A stretch of DNA of 32,439 nucleotides from Planctomycetota bacterium (GTDB taxonomy: Bacteria; Planctomycetota; UBA1135; GCA-002748355): the NCBI GenBank assembly GCA_020426005.1, contig JAGQQW010000034.1, positions 1 through 32,439 on the forward strand, written 5' to 3'. Positions within the stretch are counted from its first letter, which is position 1. The number at the start of each line of letters is the position of its first letter. Position numbers and translations under genes: made by a program. Shown here piece after piece: positions 2,300 to 24,937 of the stretch. Under the pieces are notes generated by a model. It searched no databases, was not told the origin of the DNA, and saw only the letters and a list, made by a program, of their open reading frames with translations.

Positions 2300-3139
2300 A
2301 TGAGGGCCGCGCTCTTCTCGCTGATCGTGCTCGCCTGCCTGGTTGGCTGGGCGACCCTCGGCGGGGGGAGCGCGGCCCCGACGTTACTGCCCGGCTCGAT
2401 CGAGGAGACGGAGGCAGGTCTCGAAGCGGAGTATGCCGAGATCTTCGGGGAGGAGCCCGAACCGCTTCCTCTCCAGCGCGACCTGCGCGAACGCACGGTG
2501 AGCCGGGCGCTGCGCCCCGAAGCCTTCGAGAACGACGCGCCGAAGGCCGTGCACCCGGATTCGGAGCGCGCCTACTACGCAGCGTTCGCCGAAGTCCTGC
2601 AACGTGACGAAGCGGAGTTCCGGCGCATCGCGGAGCAGACACTGTCCGAGTCGACGAGCGTTGCCCAGCGCGTGGCGGCAATTCGCGTTTGGCATGACGC
2701 GCCTGTCGAGCCTCGCTATCGACTCGTCGAGACCGCACTCTCGATGCCCGAACTCGACGAACGCGTGCGGGACTTCGCGCTGCGCTTCGCGAGCGAACGC
2801 GCGCGGCGCGGCCCCGACGCGCGCGCAGCGCTCGCGCACTTCTTGGACCGAGCCCTCGCTCGCGGTTCGCAGATCGAAGCACGCTACCGCGCCGAGGCGT
2901 CGTTCGCGCTCCTGCGTTGGGGCGACGCCGCCGAGATTCGCGGCCGCGATATCTATCTCTTCGCCGAGAACGATCCCGGCGTCGTCGCGCGAGCCGCGAC
3001 GGCACTCGCGGCGAGCGACGTCCCCGATGCACGCTTCGTGCTCGACCGCCTCGAACGAACCCATCCGACTCGCCAAGTCCGCGAAGCGGTAGCGCGAGCG
3101 CGTCGCGACGCGGCGAACCAGGAAAGCGAAGATCGCTGA
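2300..3139 (+). CDS. Exported protein with HEAT-like helical repeats, function unknown
   Basis: This 279-residue protein starts at ATG 2300, 18 nt after the cytochrome stop, so the two are probably cotranscribed. Residues 1-25 form a hydrophobic signal or anchor segment. An acidic linker follows, and then a series of amphipathic alpha-helical units rich in Ala, Arg and Glu (roughly residues 90-275) that resembles HEAT/TPR-like solenoids. No catalytic motif is visible. Such solenoids usually mediate protein-protein contacts, so an accessory role for the multihaem cytochrome is possible, based only on position. No convincing Shine-Dalgarno site precedes the ATG, which fits translational coupling to the upstream gene. 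Confidence 0.7.
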   Translation: MRAALFSLIVLACLVGWATLGGGSAAPTLLPGSIEETEAGLEAEYAEIFGEEPEPLPLQRDLRERTVSRALRPEAFENDAPKAVHPDSERAYYAAFAEVLQRDEAEFRRIAEQTLSESTSVAQRVAAIRVWHDAPVEPRYRLVETALSMPELDERVRDFALRFASERARRGPDARAALAHFLDRALARGSQIEARYRAEASFALLRWGDAAEIRGRDIYLFAENDPGVVARAATALAASDVPDARFVLDRLERTHPTRQVREAVARARRDAANQESEDR

Positions 3140-3204
3140 TTGGTGATCGCGGCGACGCGACTGTCCGCTGGCAACCCGCGCCTCGGAACTGTCTACTTCG
3201 CGTC

Positions 3205-4068
3205 GTGACGAAAGGGCTCAGCATCGACCCGAGTGAACTCGCGGCGCGGCACTACGAGAACTTCCCGGTCGGGAGCTTCCTACTGCCGCGCAAGAAGCGC
3301 GTCCACGTCCACCGGCTCTACGCGTTCGCGCGCGTTGCGGACGACATCGTCGACGAGATGCACGATCGGACAGGATTGCTCGCATGGCGGGATGCCACAC
3401 GACTCGCCCTCGAAGGTGTCCAGCCGCCCCGCGTCCCGCAGCTTCTCGTCGATCTCGCGGCGACCGTCCGATCGGAGAAGCTCGATGCCAAGTTGCTGTT
3501 TCGCCTACTCGATGCGTTCGAACGCGACCTCGATCAGGACAGGTATCGCGACCGCGAGGACGTCGCTTCGTACTGCCGTGACAGTGCCGACCCGGTCGGA
3601 CGCCTCATGCTGCAGCTCTTCGAACGCGAGACGCCGGAGAACGTCGCGCTCTCCGACGCGATCTGCACGGGGCTCCAGATCCTCAACCACGCCCAGGACG
3701 TGAAGAAGGACTGGACCGAACGCCAACGCATCTACCTTCCCGAACGCTCGCTCGACGCACACGGTGTATCGCTCGAACACTTCGATCGCGAAGACATCTC
3801 GGATGGCCTGCGCGCGTGCGTGCGGGAGTTCGCGGATTGGGCACGCGAAAACTTCGCACAGGGCTGGCCCCTCCCACGCCGCATCGGTGGTCGCTTCGGC
3901 CTCGAGCTCGCGTCGATCCTCGCGGCGGCCACGCTCGTGCTCGAACGACTCGATGCGTGCGCGTACGACGTGTTCCGCGTGAGGCCGAAGATCCACAAGA
4001 CGGATCTGCCGCGCATCCTGCTGCGCGCGATGCGGCGCAAGCCGCCAAAGGTCCTAGGCGGTCGCTGA
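3205..4068 (+). CDS. hpnC: Squalene synthase family protein HpnC
   Basis: This 287-residue trans-isoprenyl diphosphate synthase-fold protein has the usual length of HpnC. HpnC, with HpnD and HpnE, makes squalene from two farnesyl diphosphates: HpnC converts presqualene diphosphate to hydroxysqualene. Both Asp-rich metal/diphosphate motifs are present: DDIVDE at residues 46-51, and DVKKD at 165-169 within a LNHAQD context, followed by RIYLP. The frame is open further upstream, but GTG 3205 leads straight into the family's typical N-terminus (ELAARHYENFPVGSFLLP); the upstream translation overlaps the 2300-3139 gene and looks like read-through of another frame. The 65-nt gap from the previous gene shows nothing distinctive. 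HpnC and HpnD are paralogues. I assign this one as HpnC from its N-terminal motif and because the other copy matches HpnD better. Confidence 0.88.
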   Translation: MTKGLSIDPSELAARHYENFPVGSFLLPRKKRVHVHRLYAFARVADDIVDEMHDRTGLLAWRDATRLALEGVQPPRVPQLLVDLAATVRSEKLDAKLLFRLLDAFERDLDQDRYRDREDVASYCRDSADPVGRLMLQLFERETPENVALSDAICTGLQILNHAQDVKKDWTERQRIYLPERSLDAHGVSLEHFDREDISDGLRACVREFADWARENFAQGWPLPRRIGGRFGLELASILAAATLVLERLDACAYDVFRVRPKIHKTDLPRILLRAMRRKPPKVLGGR

Positions 4069-7269: not shown

Positions 7270-8154
7270 ATGGCCTCGCCTCCCCTGGCCGCCGCGCGGA
7301 GCCCCGCCGAGATCGCCCGCGCGTCCGGTTCGAACTTTCTGACGAGCTTCCTGTTCCTGTCGCCGGGACGCCGTCGCGCATTGCTCGCGGTCTACGCGTT
7401 CTGCCGCGTCGTCGACGATGCGGTCGATGCGATCGACGAGGATGGCGCGGCGACCGACGAGCGGCGCGTTGAGGCGCGCCGCCAACTCGACTTCTGGCGC
7501 GAAGAACTCGACGCCGCCTTTGCGGGCAGGCCACAGACACCGACCGGGTTCGCACTCCATCGCGCGGCCGAGCGGTTCGACCTCGACCCTGCGCCACTGC
7601 ACGACGTGTGCAATGGCTGTGAGATGGATCTCGAAGCGCGGAGCTACGTGACGTTCGCTGCACTCGAGGTGTACATGCGGCGCGTCGCGTCGGCGGTCGG
7701 GATCGCATGCCTGCCGATCTTCGGTGCTGATCCCGAGCGTTCGCGTGCGTATGCCGACAAGCTCGGGATCGCGCTGCAGTACACGAACATCCTGCGCGAC
7801 GTCGCCGAGGACGGCGCCCGCGGCCGTCTCTATCTACCGCTCGATACTTTGGAAGCACACGGCGTCGATCGCTCGACACTCGTTCCCGCACCACCGCCGG
7901 CATCACTCACACCGGGTGGTCCGATCGCACGCATGCTCGTCGCCGAACATCAGCGAGCGAAGTCGTTGTATGCGGAAGCCGACGCGGTGCTGCCCGATGC
8001 CGATCGCAGCGCGTTGAGGCCCGCACGCATCATGGCGAACATCTACAGCGACCTGCAGGGGCGCGTCGAGAAGCTCGGCCCCGATGTCCTGACCGCACCG
8101 CGTTGCCGCGTGCCTCTCGTGCGCAAGCTCTACCTCGCCACGTTCGGTCTCTGA
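7270..8154 (+). CDS. hpnD: Presqualene diphosphate synthase HpnD
   Basis: This 294-residue protein, of normal family length, condenses two farnesyl diphosphates to presqualene diphosphate, the first step of the HpnC/D/E squalene route. Visible motifs are SGSNFLTSFLFL near the N-terminus, FCRVVDDAVDAID with the first Asp cluster at residues 49-53, and QYTNILRDVAED with Asp177 and Asp181 as the second cluster, followed by GRLYLP. Other hallmarks are the CNGCEMDLE segment and MRRVASAVG. The start at ATG 7270 gives the expected N-terminus; no strong ribosome-binding site precedes it. The gene lies 13 nt upstream of hpnE, so the two form an operon, while hpnC lies about 3.2 kb away. Confidence 0.93.
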   Translation: MASPPLAAARSPAEIARASGSNFLTSFLFLSPGRRRALLAVYAFCRVVDDAVDAIDEDGAATDERRVEARRQLDFWREELDAAFAGRPQTPTGFALHRAAERFDLDPAPLHDVCNGCEMDLEARSYVTFAALEVYMRRVASAVGIACLPIFGADPERSRAYADKLGIALQYTNILRDVAEDGARGRLYLPLDTLEAHGVDRSTLVPAPPPASLTPGGPIARMLVAEHQRAKSLYAEADAVLPDADRSALRPARIMANIYSDLQGRVEKLGPDVLTAPRCRVPLVRKLYLATFGL

Positions 8155-8167
8155 GTCGTTTCGCACG

Positions 8168-9505
8168 GTGTCCGACGCGCGTCCCCTCGTGACCATCGTC
8201 GGTGGCGGCGTCGCGGGTATCGCCTCGGCCCTCGAACACGCGCGACTCGGCTTTCGAGTCCGACTCGTCGAAGCTCGCTCGACCCTCGGTGGTCGTGCGT
8301 GGTCCAAGTGCGGCATCGACAACGCGACCCACGTCATGCTCGGGTGCTACGACGCGTTTCGGCGCGTGCTGCGCGAACTCGGGACCGAGGATCGCTTCTA
8401 CGTCCCGCCAGGGCTGCGACTGACGTGGCTCGGCGAAGACGGGACGTTGCACAGACTCAGGGCATCCGCGCGTTTGGGCAAGCTCGGCCTCCTCGCGGGC
8501 ATCCTCGGCATGCGCAGTCTCGAACTGTCCGTGCGCATGGGCTTGCTGAGCGCGGGACGGATCGCGATGCGCGGCGGCGCGCTGGCAGGAGAAACCGTCT
8601 CGACGTGGCTCGCGCGAGAAGGCGTCACACCACGCGTGCGCGGTCTCTTCTTCGAACCACTCTGTCGCGCGATCATGAACCAAGAACCCGATCACGCGTG
8701 TGCGATGCTCTTCGCGAACACGCTGAAGATCGCGTTCACGAGCGGTGCTCGCGGGATGGCGCTCTGGGTGCCGACGACGGAGTGGCACGCGATTCTCGGC
8801 GAGCCGGCGCAGGCCGCGCTGCGCGATCGCGGCGCCGACGTGCGCCTCGGCACTCGCATCGATAGCGTCGACATCGACGGCGACCGCACTCTGCTGCGTA
8901 CGAACGACGGCGAAACACTGCGAGATCACGAGCGAGTCGTACTCGCGGTTCCCTGGCACGTTGCGGCGAAGCTCGACCCGGACGGCCGCTTCGTGCCGGC
9001 AGCAGCCGACATGCACTCGGTGCCGATGCTCGGGCTGCACGTCGCGCTCGACGCAGCGGACGTACCGTGCAGCGATCCCGTAATCGCCTTCGAGAACGGA
9101 CAACCCTTCCACTTCTTGTGTCGACGTCCCAACGAGTCGGGCAATCCGCAGGAAGGCGTTCCTGCATGCCTCCTCGCGGGAGAAGCGTTCGCACTCGATG
9201 GCTTGCCGAGACGTGAGATCGTCGAACTCGGCCTCGCGCAGCTCGCGCGCTTCACGAAGCGCACGCGGAGTTGGCCCGATCCCGTACGCGCGACGGCGCA
9301 CGTCGTGCGCGAAGCACGCGCGACACTCGCCAGCACTGCCGGACCGAGCGCACCGCGACCTGCAGCAGGTGCGACGCGCGTGCCGTCGCTATTCCTCGCA
9401 GGCGATTGGACCGATACCGGGCTACCGTCGACGCTCGAAGGCGCGGCGCGCAGCGGCTTCGCCTCGGCTCATCGATTGGGCGCGGACGCCAAATCGATGA
9501 CGTAG
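8168..9505 (+). CDS. hpnE: Hydroxysqualene dehydroxylase HpnE (FAD-dependent)
   Basis: This 445-residue flavoprotein reduces hydroxysqualene to squalene, the last step of the HpnC/D/E route. The N-terminus carries the Rossmann FAD-binding motif IVGGGVAGIASA (residues 10-21) and the downstream E-A-R-x-x-LGGRA that binds the FAD ribose and phosphates. The C-terminus has the amine-oxidase-type FLAGDWTDTGLPSTLEGAARSG block, which closes the FAD site. GTG 8168 is the only sensible start, giving the Rossmann strand directly. The gene follows hpnD by 13 nt. Its 3' end overlaps by 37 nt the 3' end of the convergent zinc-ribbon gene. No squalene-hopene cyclase or squalene epoxidase follows, so the fate of the squalene is not visible here. 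Confidence 0.92.
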   Translation: MSDARPLVTIVGGGVAGIASALEHARLGFRVRLVEARSTLGGRAWSKCGIDNATHVMLGCYDAFRRVLRELGTEDRFYVPPGLRLTWLGEDGTLHRLRASARLGKLGLLAGILGMRSLELSVRMGLLSAGRIAMRGGALAGETVSTWLAREGVTPRVRGLFFEPLCRAIMNQEPDHACAMLFANTLKIAFTSGARGMALWVPTTEWHAILGEPAQAALRDRGADVRLGTRIDSVDIDGDRTLLRTNDGETLRDHERVVLAVPWHVAAKLDPDGRFVPAAADMHSVPMLGLHVALDAADVPCSDPVIAFENGQPFHFLCRRPNESGNPQEGVPACLLAGEAFALDGLPRREIVELGLAQLARFTKRTRSWPDPVRATAHVVREARATLASTAGPSAPRPAAGATRVPSLFLAGDWTDTGLPSTLEGAARSGFASAHRLGADAKSMT

Positions 9506-23646: not shown

Positions 23647-24624
23647 ATGAACCCATCGAAGATCACCATCCTCGCGCTCACCGCCCTACTCAGCTGCGTG
23701 GGTGCCAATGCTCAAGGTCCACTCCCCGGAGTGACTCAGGACTGGAGCAAGGTCGCGCAGCGAATCGCGTGGCACGGCACGTGGAACGGCGCAATCGCCG
23801 CCGCGAAGTCGACGGAACGTCCGATCCTGCTGATCGCTGCGGCTCCGCATTGTGGGCTCGTGCCCGGCATGTGGTGACCGGGCAAGCAGGAGATGGACAG
23901 GAGTTACCTGTCCGACCAAGCCGTCGTTTCGGCATCGCGTGCCTTCGTTTGTGTACGCCTGCTCACGTACGAGAGCGCCGAGGAGGCCGAGGTTCTGAAA
24001 CGGCTCTTCGTGGGTCGGGACGGACTCGAGAACTCGGTGTTCGCGATTCTGGATCCGACTGGCACGAAGACGTTGACCCGATCGGGGCGGTCACCCTCGT
24101 GGGCGTTCGAAGACGCCGCCGAGATGGCCAGCTCCATGCGGAAGATCGCGAAGCGCTACCCCGGTAAGGAGAATCCGCCAACAGTGCAGCTTCCCTGGCT
24201 CGCCGATGTGCGGCGCGGTCTCAACGCCGCTCGGGCCGACTCGCAGCTCCTCATGATCGTCTGCGGCACTGGCAAGAAACGAGATTCCCTCGAGACGGAA
24301 CTCGCGCGACTCGCTTGGTCGGATGCGTGGATCGGCAAGTTCCTCTATGCACGTGCCGACGAGGAGACGGACTGGAACGTTCTCGAGGGCAGCGAGGCCC
24401 ACCCTCGACTCGGCGTGGTCCTCGTGCAGCCCGGCGAGTTCGGCACGGATGGTAAGGTGCTTGCCAGCTTCGACGGGACACCTACGGCAGCAGATCTGGC
24501 CGCCGTGAAGGCCGGTCACGAAGCGGGCCCCGTCGACACGCGTCGCCTGAAGCAGAAGGGCAGGCGTGCCGGAATCGAGTGGAAGCCCGCGATCCCGATC
24601 ACCGATCGCCGCGGCTCGCGCTGA
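23647..24624 (+). CDS. Exported thioredoxin-like protein with in-frame TGA, candidate selenoprotein
   Basis: ATG 23647, seven bases after GAGGAG, begins a 325-residue frame if the TGA at 23875 is read as selenocysteine (residue 77). Residues 1-23 are a signal peptide. Residues 55-105 look like the start of a thioredoxin fold: ERPILLIAAA strand, Cys69, then MW-U-PGKQEMDRSYLSDQAVV, which lines up with the usual W-C-x-x-C-x-x-M-D-(R)-x-x-(L)-S-D-x-x-V of thioredoxin-like proteins, putting residue 77 at the first active-site Cys and Lys at the second. Downstream sequence (FVCVRL, NSVFAILDPTGTK) continues the fold and keeps normal codon use. A SECIS-like hairpin follows the TGA. If read as a stop, only 76 residues are made. 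Cys69 may be the resolving thiol. Alternatives: nonsense mutation or sequencing error. Confidence 0.7.
23894..23914 (+). promoter_or_regulatory. SECIS-like hairpin downstream of the in-frame TGA
   Basis: GGACAGG (23895-23901) pairs perfectly with CCTGTCC (23907-23913) around a 5-nt loop AGTTA; a U-G pair (23894/23914) extends the stem. The loop begins 24 nt after the TGA, and its second base is G followed by U. Bacterial SECIS elements are small hairpins in the coding region just after the UGA, with a short loop, a G in the first two loop positions and about 16-37 nt from UGA to loop, so all criteria I can check by eye are met. The element would recruit SelB. Confidence 0.65.
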
Positions 24625-24664
24625 GCGAACGTCGAACCCGACTGCTGCCGGCGCGGATGGCTGA

Positions 24665-24937
24665 GATAGCGCCCGCAGAAAGCTCCCGGATAAGCTGCAG
24701 GACGGGTTCTCCACCCACGCGTTCCGCCACTCGTTCCAAATCCACCTCCTCGAAGAGAGCGTTGCAGTGCATCACGTCAAAACGCTCATGGGTCACAGCC
24801 GGAACAGGGACAGTATGTACCGCTACGCACACGCTCCGCGCGTGCAACTCCGGCACTCCATGGCGAACGCATTCGACGACACCGATGGCCTGTTCGAACC
24901 GCCAAGCGGGACCGCGGGCGCAGCTGTAAACGGATGA
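24665..24937 (+). pseudogene. C-terminal remnant of a tyrosine recombinase (phage-type integrase)
   Basis: The frame is open from 24665 to a TGA at 24935-24937, about 90 codons with no usable start. It contains three catalytic landmarks of the tyrosine-recombinase C-terminal domain in order: H-A-F-R-HS (box II, catalytic Arg) with HLLE after it, MGHS (His), and MYRYAH with the Tyr nucleophile position. The rest of the enzyme is absent upstream, where the neighbouring thioredoxin-like gene ends, and no other frame carries it. It is therefore a truncated, dead copy. It shows that an integrating element once sat here. Confidence 0.82.

Follow-up and report, generated by a model that had tools for sequence, protein, structure and literature searches.

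A bacterial thioredoxin-like selenoprotein family, probably exported, with a C-x7-U layout in place of CxxC

The gene at positions 23647–24624 on the forward strand of the window (the whole stretch of DNA analysed, 32,439 nucleotides of contig JAGQQW010000034.1 from a Planctomycetota bacterium) encodes a protein of 325 residues with selenocysteine (Sec) at residue 77, and represents an apparently new family of selenoproteins of thioredoxin-like fold, in which the conserved redox residues are spaced unusually, as C-x7-U. Comparison of sequences indicates that the UGA codon for residue 77 (23875–23877, forward strand) is almost certainly decoded as Sec by tRNA-Sec and SelB by way of a downstream hairpin, and the position of the residue is marked by a TGA column in the alignment, TGY codons in Cys-containing homologues, the predicted structure, and an alignment with the VPGUxxT selenoproteins. 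For the protein as a whole, the reading we favor, with a probability of roughly 0.6, is that of an exported two-domain thioredoxin-like selenoprotein, recoded through a SECIS element, which would carry out thiol/selenol redox chemistry with U77 as the nucleophile and Cys69 as the resolving residue.

The sequence-only reading from which this work started had described a frame running from the ATG at 23647 to position 24624 with a single internal TGA at 23875–23877, and the frame is present exactly so, closed by its own stop codon TGA at 24622–24624. The continuity of codon use across the internal TGA, claimed at the same time, is borne out by GC fractions at the three codon positions of 0.62/0.57/0.76 before it and 0.67/0.51/0.78 after it; the corresponding values in the upstream gene are 0.61/0.52/0.76. 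A Shine-Dalgarno-like GAGGAG lies immediately 5′ of the ATG, and the homologue alignment shows conservation across the family that spans both flanks of the internal TGA. The mechanical list of open reading frames splits the gene in two, from 23542 or 23647 to 23877 and from 23893 to 24624. By inspection of the sequence, the first ~23 residues (23647–23715, forward strand) form a probable N-terminal export signal that ends with GANAQ before a glycine, and a hydrophobic N-terminal stretch ending near AQ is recurrent in the family alignment. The hydrophobic character of this N-terminus suggests that the protein is exported.

Among 61 genomes of the window's order, the window's own genome being one of them, 24 homologues are found with strong scores, and each of the 24 carries an in-frame TGA at the same aligned column. 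When the search is widened to 392 genomes of the phylum, one TGA is reported in nearly all of the strong matches of full length, and the exceptions are mostly of partial profile coverage, away from the Sec position. After removal of duplicates, 45 distinct Sec-type sites were read individually, and the TGA occupies the same column in 45/45. Five more TGA-bearing genes come from a second phylum, that of a Fimbriimonas MAG. The family motif around Sec is VPGxWUPG[KYF], with a cysteine at U-8 and Pro-Gly following Sec in all Sec-type loci read except the divergent member L034; this locus has no cysteine at U-8 and one at U-2 instead (SGCFURG), which looks like a shift of the resolving cysteine from U-8 to U-2. 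Forms with cysteine in place of Sec were sought by a scan with the family alignment in which Sec was written as Cys, and 11 loci have TGY at the Sec codon; they belong to MAGs of Pirellula/Planctomycetaceae, to one of Fimbriimonas, and to others. These Cys forms are 32–43% identical and share the motif CxGVSGMWCPGK. At position 77, for which Cys in homologues had been proposed as the check, the family thus has TGA in all Sec-type loci read and Cys in these 11. A scan of the genome contigs with the single sequence returned no relatives, probably because the Sec forms carry TGA and not TGY, and close relatives may be absent.

The SECIS hairpin occupies positions 23894–23914 of the forward strand. 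The 7-bp stem reported earlier is found as GGACAGG-AGTTA-CCTGTCC, with a loop (AGTTA, 23902–23906) that starts 24 nt after the TGA and has G at its second position, and an additional outer U-G pair extends the stem to 8 bp. The folding energy of the 61-nt stretch containing the hairpin is unexceptional for the single sequence (z = −0.74), and the case for the hairpin is therefore built on comparison. In 24 aligned sequences, pairing is observed in 90.6% of cells, with double-sided changes at six of the eight pairs; at 0.442, covariation scores above the shuffled mean of 0.246 and above every one of 500 shuffles, while sliding the hairpin partners gives scores of at most 0.134. RNAalifold recovers the same helix unprompted. 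The loop G is at position 1 or 2, usually position 2, in 43 of the 45 Sec forms. The hairpin is lost in the 10 distinct Cys forms examined, the 30-nt region of the hairpin averaging −11.5 kcal/mol in the 45 Sec forms vs −2.9 kcal/mol in the 10 Cys forms. Since the Sec forms have the hairpin and the Cys forms do not, the comparison suggests that it is retained for recoding, beyond the demands of the encoded protein; the constant TGA column, the covariation, and the loss in Cys homologues together make the hairpin more than a chance structure.

The assembly from which the window comes is 67% complete, and it contains tRNA-Sec, selA, and selD, as well as selB in the form of a C-terminal fragment. 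The tRNA-Sec scores 71.6 bits against a cut-off of 47 bits and is classified by ARAGORN as tRNA-SeC with anticodon tca, and selA (460 bits) and selD (356 bits) adjoin on one contig. Only the C-terminal half of selB (396 amino acids) is present, at the start of a contig, and its score of 69.7 bits lies below the cut-off because it is half a gene. All 61 genomes searched of the window's order have selA above the cut-off. We note that the active-site position of selD in the window's genome is itself an in-frame TGA (SSAAG-U-AAKMSP; L011:1531-1533, G000:C165), on account of which SelD is probably also a selenoprotein in this organism.

Three features by which bacterial selenoproteins are recognized are found here, namely decoding genes, a conserved UGA with Cys replacement, and a downstream hairpin with a loop G, and the earlier proposal that residue 77 is Sec is supported by the sel genes, the conserved TGA, the Cys replacement, and the covariation of the hairpin. 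If the TGA were a true stop or a sequencing error, leaving a pseudogene or two short genes, open reading frame callers would yield the two frames that they do yield, and a hairpin whose energy by itself is unexceptional would be in keeping; but the same TGA recurs in all Sec-type homologues read, which span two phyla, the sequence is conserved on both sides of it, the Cys homologues have no stop, and the hairpin covaries, which leaves this explanation with hardly any probability. That independent genomes of two phyla share the TGA rules out a sequencing error for practical purposes, and a pseudogene is rejected on cross-species conservation. Reading of the TGA as another amino acid, by a change of code or by Trp or Gly suppression, such that residue 77 is not Sec, would likewise open the frame through read-through alone. 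This is equally far-fetched, as TGA serves as the normal stop of the same gene, the genome contains tRNA-Sec, selA, and selD, the homologues substitute Cys and not Trp or Gly, and a specific hairpin is conserved; the cross-species evidence leads us to reject a code change.

AlphaFold2, run on the family alignment, predicts tandem thioredoxin folds with a mean pLDDT of 89 and a pTM of 0.86. In the first domain, strand b1 spans residues 60–65 and the active-site helix residues 78–88, and the second domain begins at about residue 183. Thioredoxins carry their attacking cysteine where the active-site helix begins, and in the model U77 takes this place, at the N-terminus of helix 78–88. Strand b1 and this helix are connected by an enlarged loop, evident in both the alignment and the model (residues 66–76; 23842–23874, forward strand), which is about 12 residues long and carries Cys69 at the conserved U-8 position (codon TGT, 23851–23853, forward strand). 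The CxxC, UxxC, or CxxU spacing is absent: U77 is followed by P-G-[KYF], and the conserved cysteine lies at U-8. The loss of the second active-site cysteine, seen earlier in the single sequence, is family-wide, the resolving position of CxxC being Lys80 in the window protein and Lys, Tyr, or Phe across the family. The suggestion that Cys69 is the partner is strengthened by its conservation in 11/11 Cys-type loci and in every Sec-type locus read apart from L034 with its U-2 cysteine; Cys69 would then pair with U77. An invariant Asn129 stands just before strand 130–135, where alignment and model suggest that the cis-proline of thioredoxins is missing, which would make plain thioredoxin activity less sure.

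The remainder of the chain, from about residue 183 and including the tail (24193–24621, forward strand), forms the second thioredoxin-like fold, according to AlphaFold2 and Foldseek, and has no active-site cysteines. Foldseek matches are to DsbD gamma, DsbH, AGR2/ERp18, and protein disulfide isomerase (PDI), both domains together being matched by PDI and ERp44-type chains, and a sequence search found no related sequence among PDB chains. Like the a-b tandems of PDI, which are the top Foldseek matches by E-value, the window protein would combine an active first domain with a second domain devoid of active-site cysteines; however, the whole-chain superposition is poor (TM 0.22–0.27, rmsd near 17 Å or more), and the window protein is bacterial.

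In the mechanism that we propose, the hairpin at 23894–23914 would direct decoding of the UGA by tRNA-Sec and SelB during translation, and the first domain, once extracytoplasmic, would catalyze thiol/selenol redox chemistry. From its place at the start of the helix, U77 would be the attacking selenolate, Cys69 in the enlarged b1-a1 loop would resolve the product in place of the lost CxxC partner, and the resulting C69–U77 selenenylsulfide (C-x7-U) would be restored by an external reductant. The b domains of PDI bind substrate or partner, and by analogy the second domain probably does the same.

The loss of the second CxxC cysteine to Lys, Tyr, or Phe could also point to a selenol peroxidase, in which U77 would reduce peroxides and Cys69 or Cys102 would resolve the selenenic acid. 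The residues Trp76, Pro78, Gly79, Asn129, Arg104, Arg148, and Glu109, which are invariant or nearly so, fit the polar active site of such an enzyme. However, the matches are to Thioredoxin_7 and to DsbD gamma, DsbH, and PDI folds, and none is to the peroxiredoxin or glutathione peroxidase families; we consider a peroxidase unlikely, though deserving of attention, and a thiol/disulfide oxidoreductase the more likely with regard to substrate type. More doubtful still is an oxidoreductase in which U77 pairs with Cys102, or with a cysteine on a different protein, while Cys69 is structural. Cys102 (in FVCVR; codon 23950–23952, forward strand) is invariant in the 23-row alignment, is present even in L034, which has no Cys69, and is found in the Cys-type homologues; yet in the model it lies within core strand 101–106, whereas Cys69 is in the loop beside Sec and is lost only where the U-2 cysteine appears, in L034. 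In the thiol/selenol redox mechanism, the resolving role would fall most readily to Cys69.

Among known families, VPGUxxT (NF041383) is nearest. Profile comparison aligns the two over ~100 columns with a probability of 96% (E 3e-9), and U77 is matched to the Sec of VPGUxxT, so that U77 is independently placed at the active site. Like the window's family, VPGUxxT has a Thioredoxin_7-type N-terminal domain (E 6e-13 in the VPGUxxT gene L099), and the two families co-occur in the same genomes, the window's included. Unlike it, VPGUxxT has the motif FQEVPGUxxC/T (the Cys of UxxC being kept in 7/7 rows aligned here), with neither an enlarged loop nor a cysteine at U-8, and in its second half an MsrA-like GMxUFW domain takes the place of the second thioredoxin fold. 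The window protein scores 17 bits against the NF041383 model, for which the curated cut-off is 275, and its family carries VPGxWUPG[KYF] where that model has VPGUxxT/C. VPGUxxT type 2 (NF041383) corresponds to 'OS_HP5' in a published inventory (PMC13188914). The VPGUxxT gene of the window's genome (G000:C22:34562-35335) has one TGA; genes of relatives (loci among L099-L103 and L106-L108) have two TGA codons each, one in a VPGUxxC motif of the thioredoxin domain and one in a GMxUFW-like motif of the MsrA-like domain (PF01625), and are double selenoproteins, and at loci L104 and L105 the two Sec positions are Cys.

The Trx7/PDZ family (NF041199) is also weakly related through a Thioredoxin_7-like N-terminal domain, with 12.9–17 bits over ~65–70 residues in three family members against a cut-off of 300. 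It differs in its CxxU motif (PMC13188914), and domain searches gave no match to a PDZ domain in the window's family. Against Thioredoxin_7 itself (PF13899), the window protein scores 22.9 bits, the gathering cut-off being 27; of 23 members, 15 give a match with E ≤ 0.01, the best value being 1.3e-6. With the Thioredoxin_7/DsbD gamma/DsbH/AGR2-ERp18 group the family shares the fold and the placement of the active site at a helix N-terminus, but it has C-x7-U for CxxC, an enlarged b1-a1 loop, and an added second thioredoxin-like domain.

No NCBIfam model matches the family, the best scores being 17 bits for NF041383 and at most 17 bits for NF041199. No entry with the family motif is listed among the 119 prokaryotic selenoprotein families of the 2026 inventory, in which VPGUxxT and Trx7/PDZ are nearest (PMC13188914), nor did a term search of the text of the deep-Sep paper turn up such a motif. 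A 2016 planctomycete genome paper discusses selenoproteins (PMC4807772). The family thus appears not to have been catalogued before, with earlier detection possible in the supplements of PMC4807772 or in a groundwater MAG study. We put at somewhat better than even the chance that this is an uncatalogued, widespread, PDI-like exported family in which C-x7-U replaces CxxC, with redox chemistry beyond that of the known UxxC and CxxU selenoproteins.

When 44 Sec forms and 11 Cys forms are placed in one tree, the Cys forms cluster as one group (support 90/69), and their sister is the Sec form L032 (support for the join 100/100). The simplest reading of this topology would be a single Sec-to-Cys exchange; the placing of the root decides which way the change went. 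None of the 11 genomes with Cys forms has selA above the cut-off, vs 61/61 in the window's order, and two of the 11 contain a weak SelA-like protein of ~100 bits. Locus L114, a Sec form from the phylum of the Fimbriimonas MAG (motif HCAGVSGMWUPGK), has the active-site surroundings of several Cys forms with U replacing C, which would help to date the Sec/Cys exchange.

The genomic surroundings of the gene are not conserved: no neighbor is common to more than three of 21 regions and no operon partner is found, so that the neighborhood gives no hint of substrate or reductant. An arylsulfotransferase-like gene upstream was considered as part of the system and rejected, as its relatives occur in only two other regions. 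Directly downstream, 24662–24934 preserves the C-terminal end of a tyrosine recombinase (Phage_integrase, PF00589, E 3.5e-7), a remnant cut by a stop at its upstream end and probably a decayed insertion. Elsewhere, the window contains a multihaem cytochrome related to MtrC/MtrF (146–2281; PF22113, E 1.3e-34), whose start near the window edge is unsure, two squalene/phytoene synthase genes (2917–4068 and 7270–8154; PF00494), and a gene judged by eye to be FAD-dependent amine oxidase/desaturase-like (8168–9505). The two synthase genes and the latter gene may together form a gene set for hopanoids or carotenoids.

Ordinary annotation splits or truncates the gene wherever it treats the TGA as a stop, and for this reason a conserved exported redox enzyme family, found in dozens of species at the least, may so far be unlisted. 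Since Sec and Cys forms coexist, the Cys forms being in genomes without selA above the cut-off, the family offers a natural setting well suited to asking why selenium is retained, and its C-x7-U layout predicts a selenenylsulfide outside the usual CxxC geometry.
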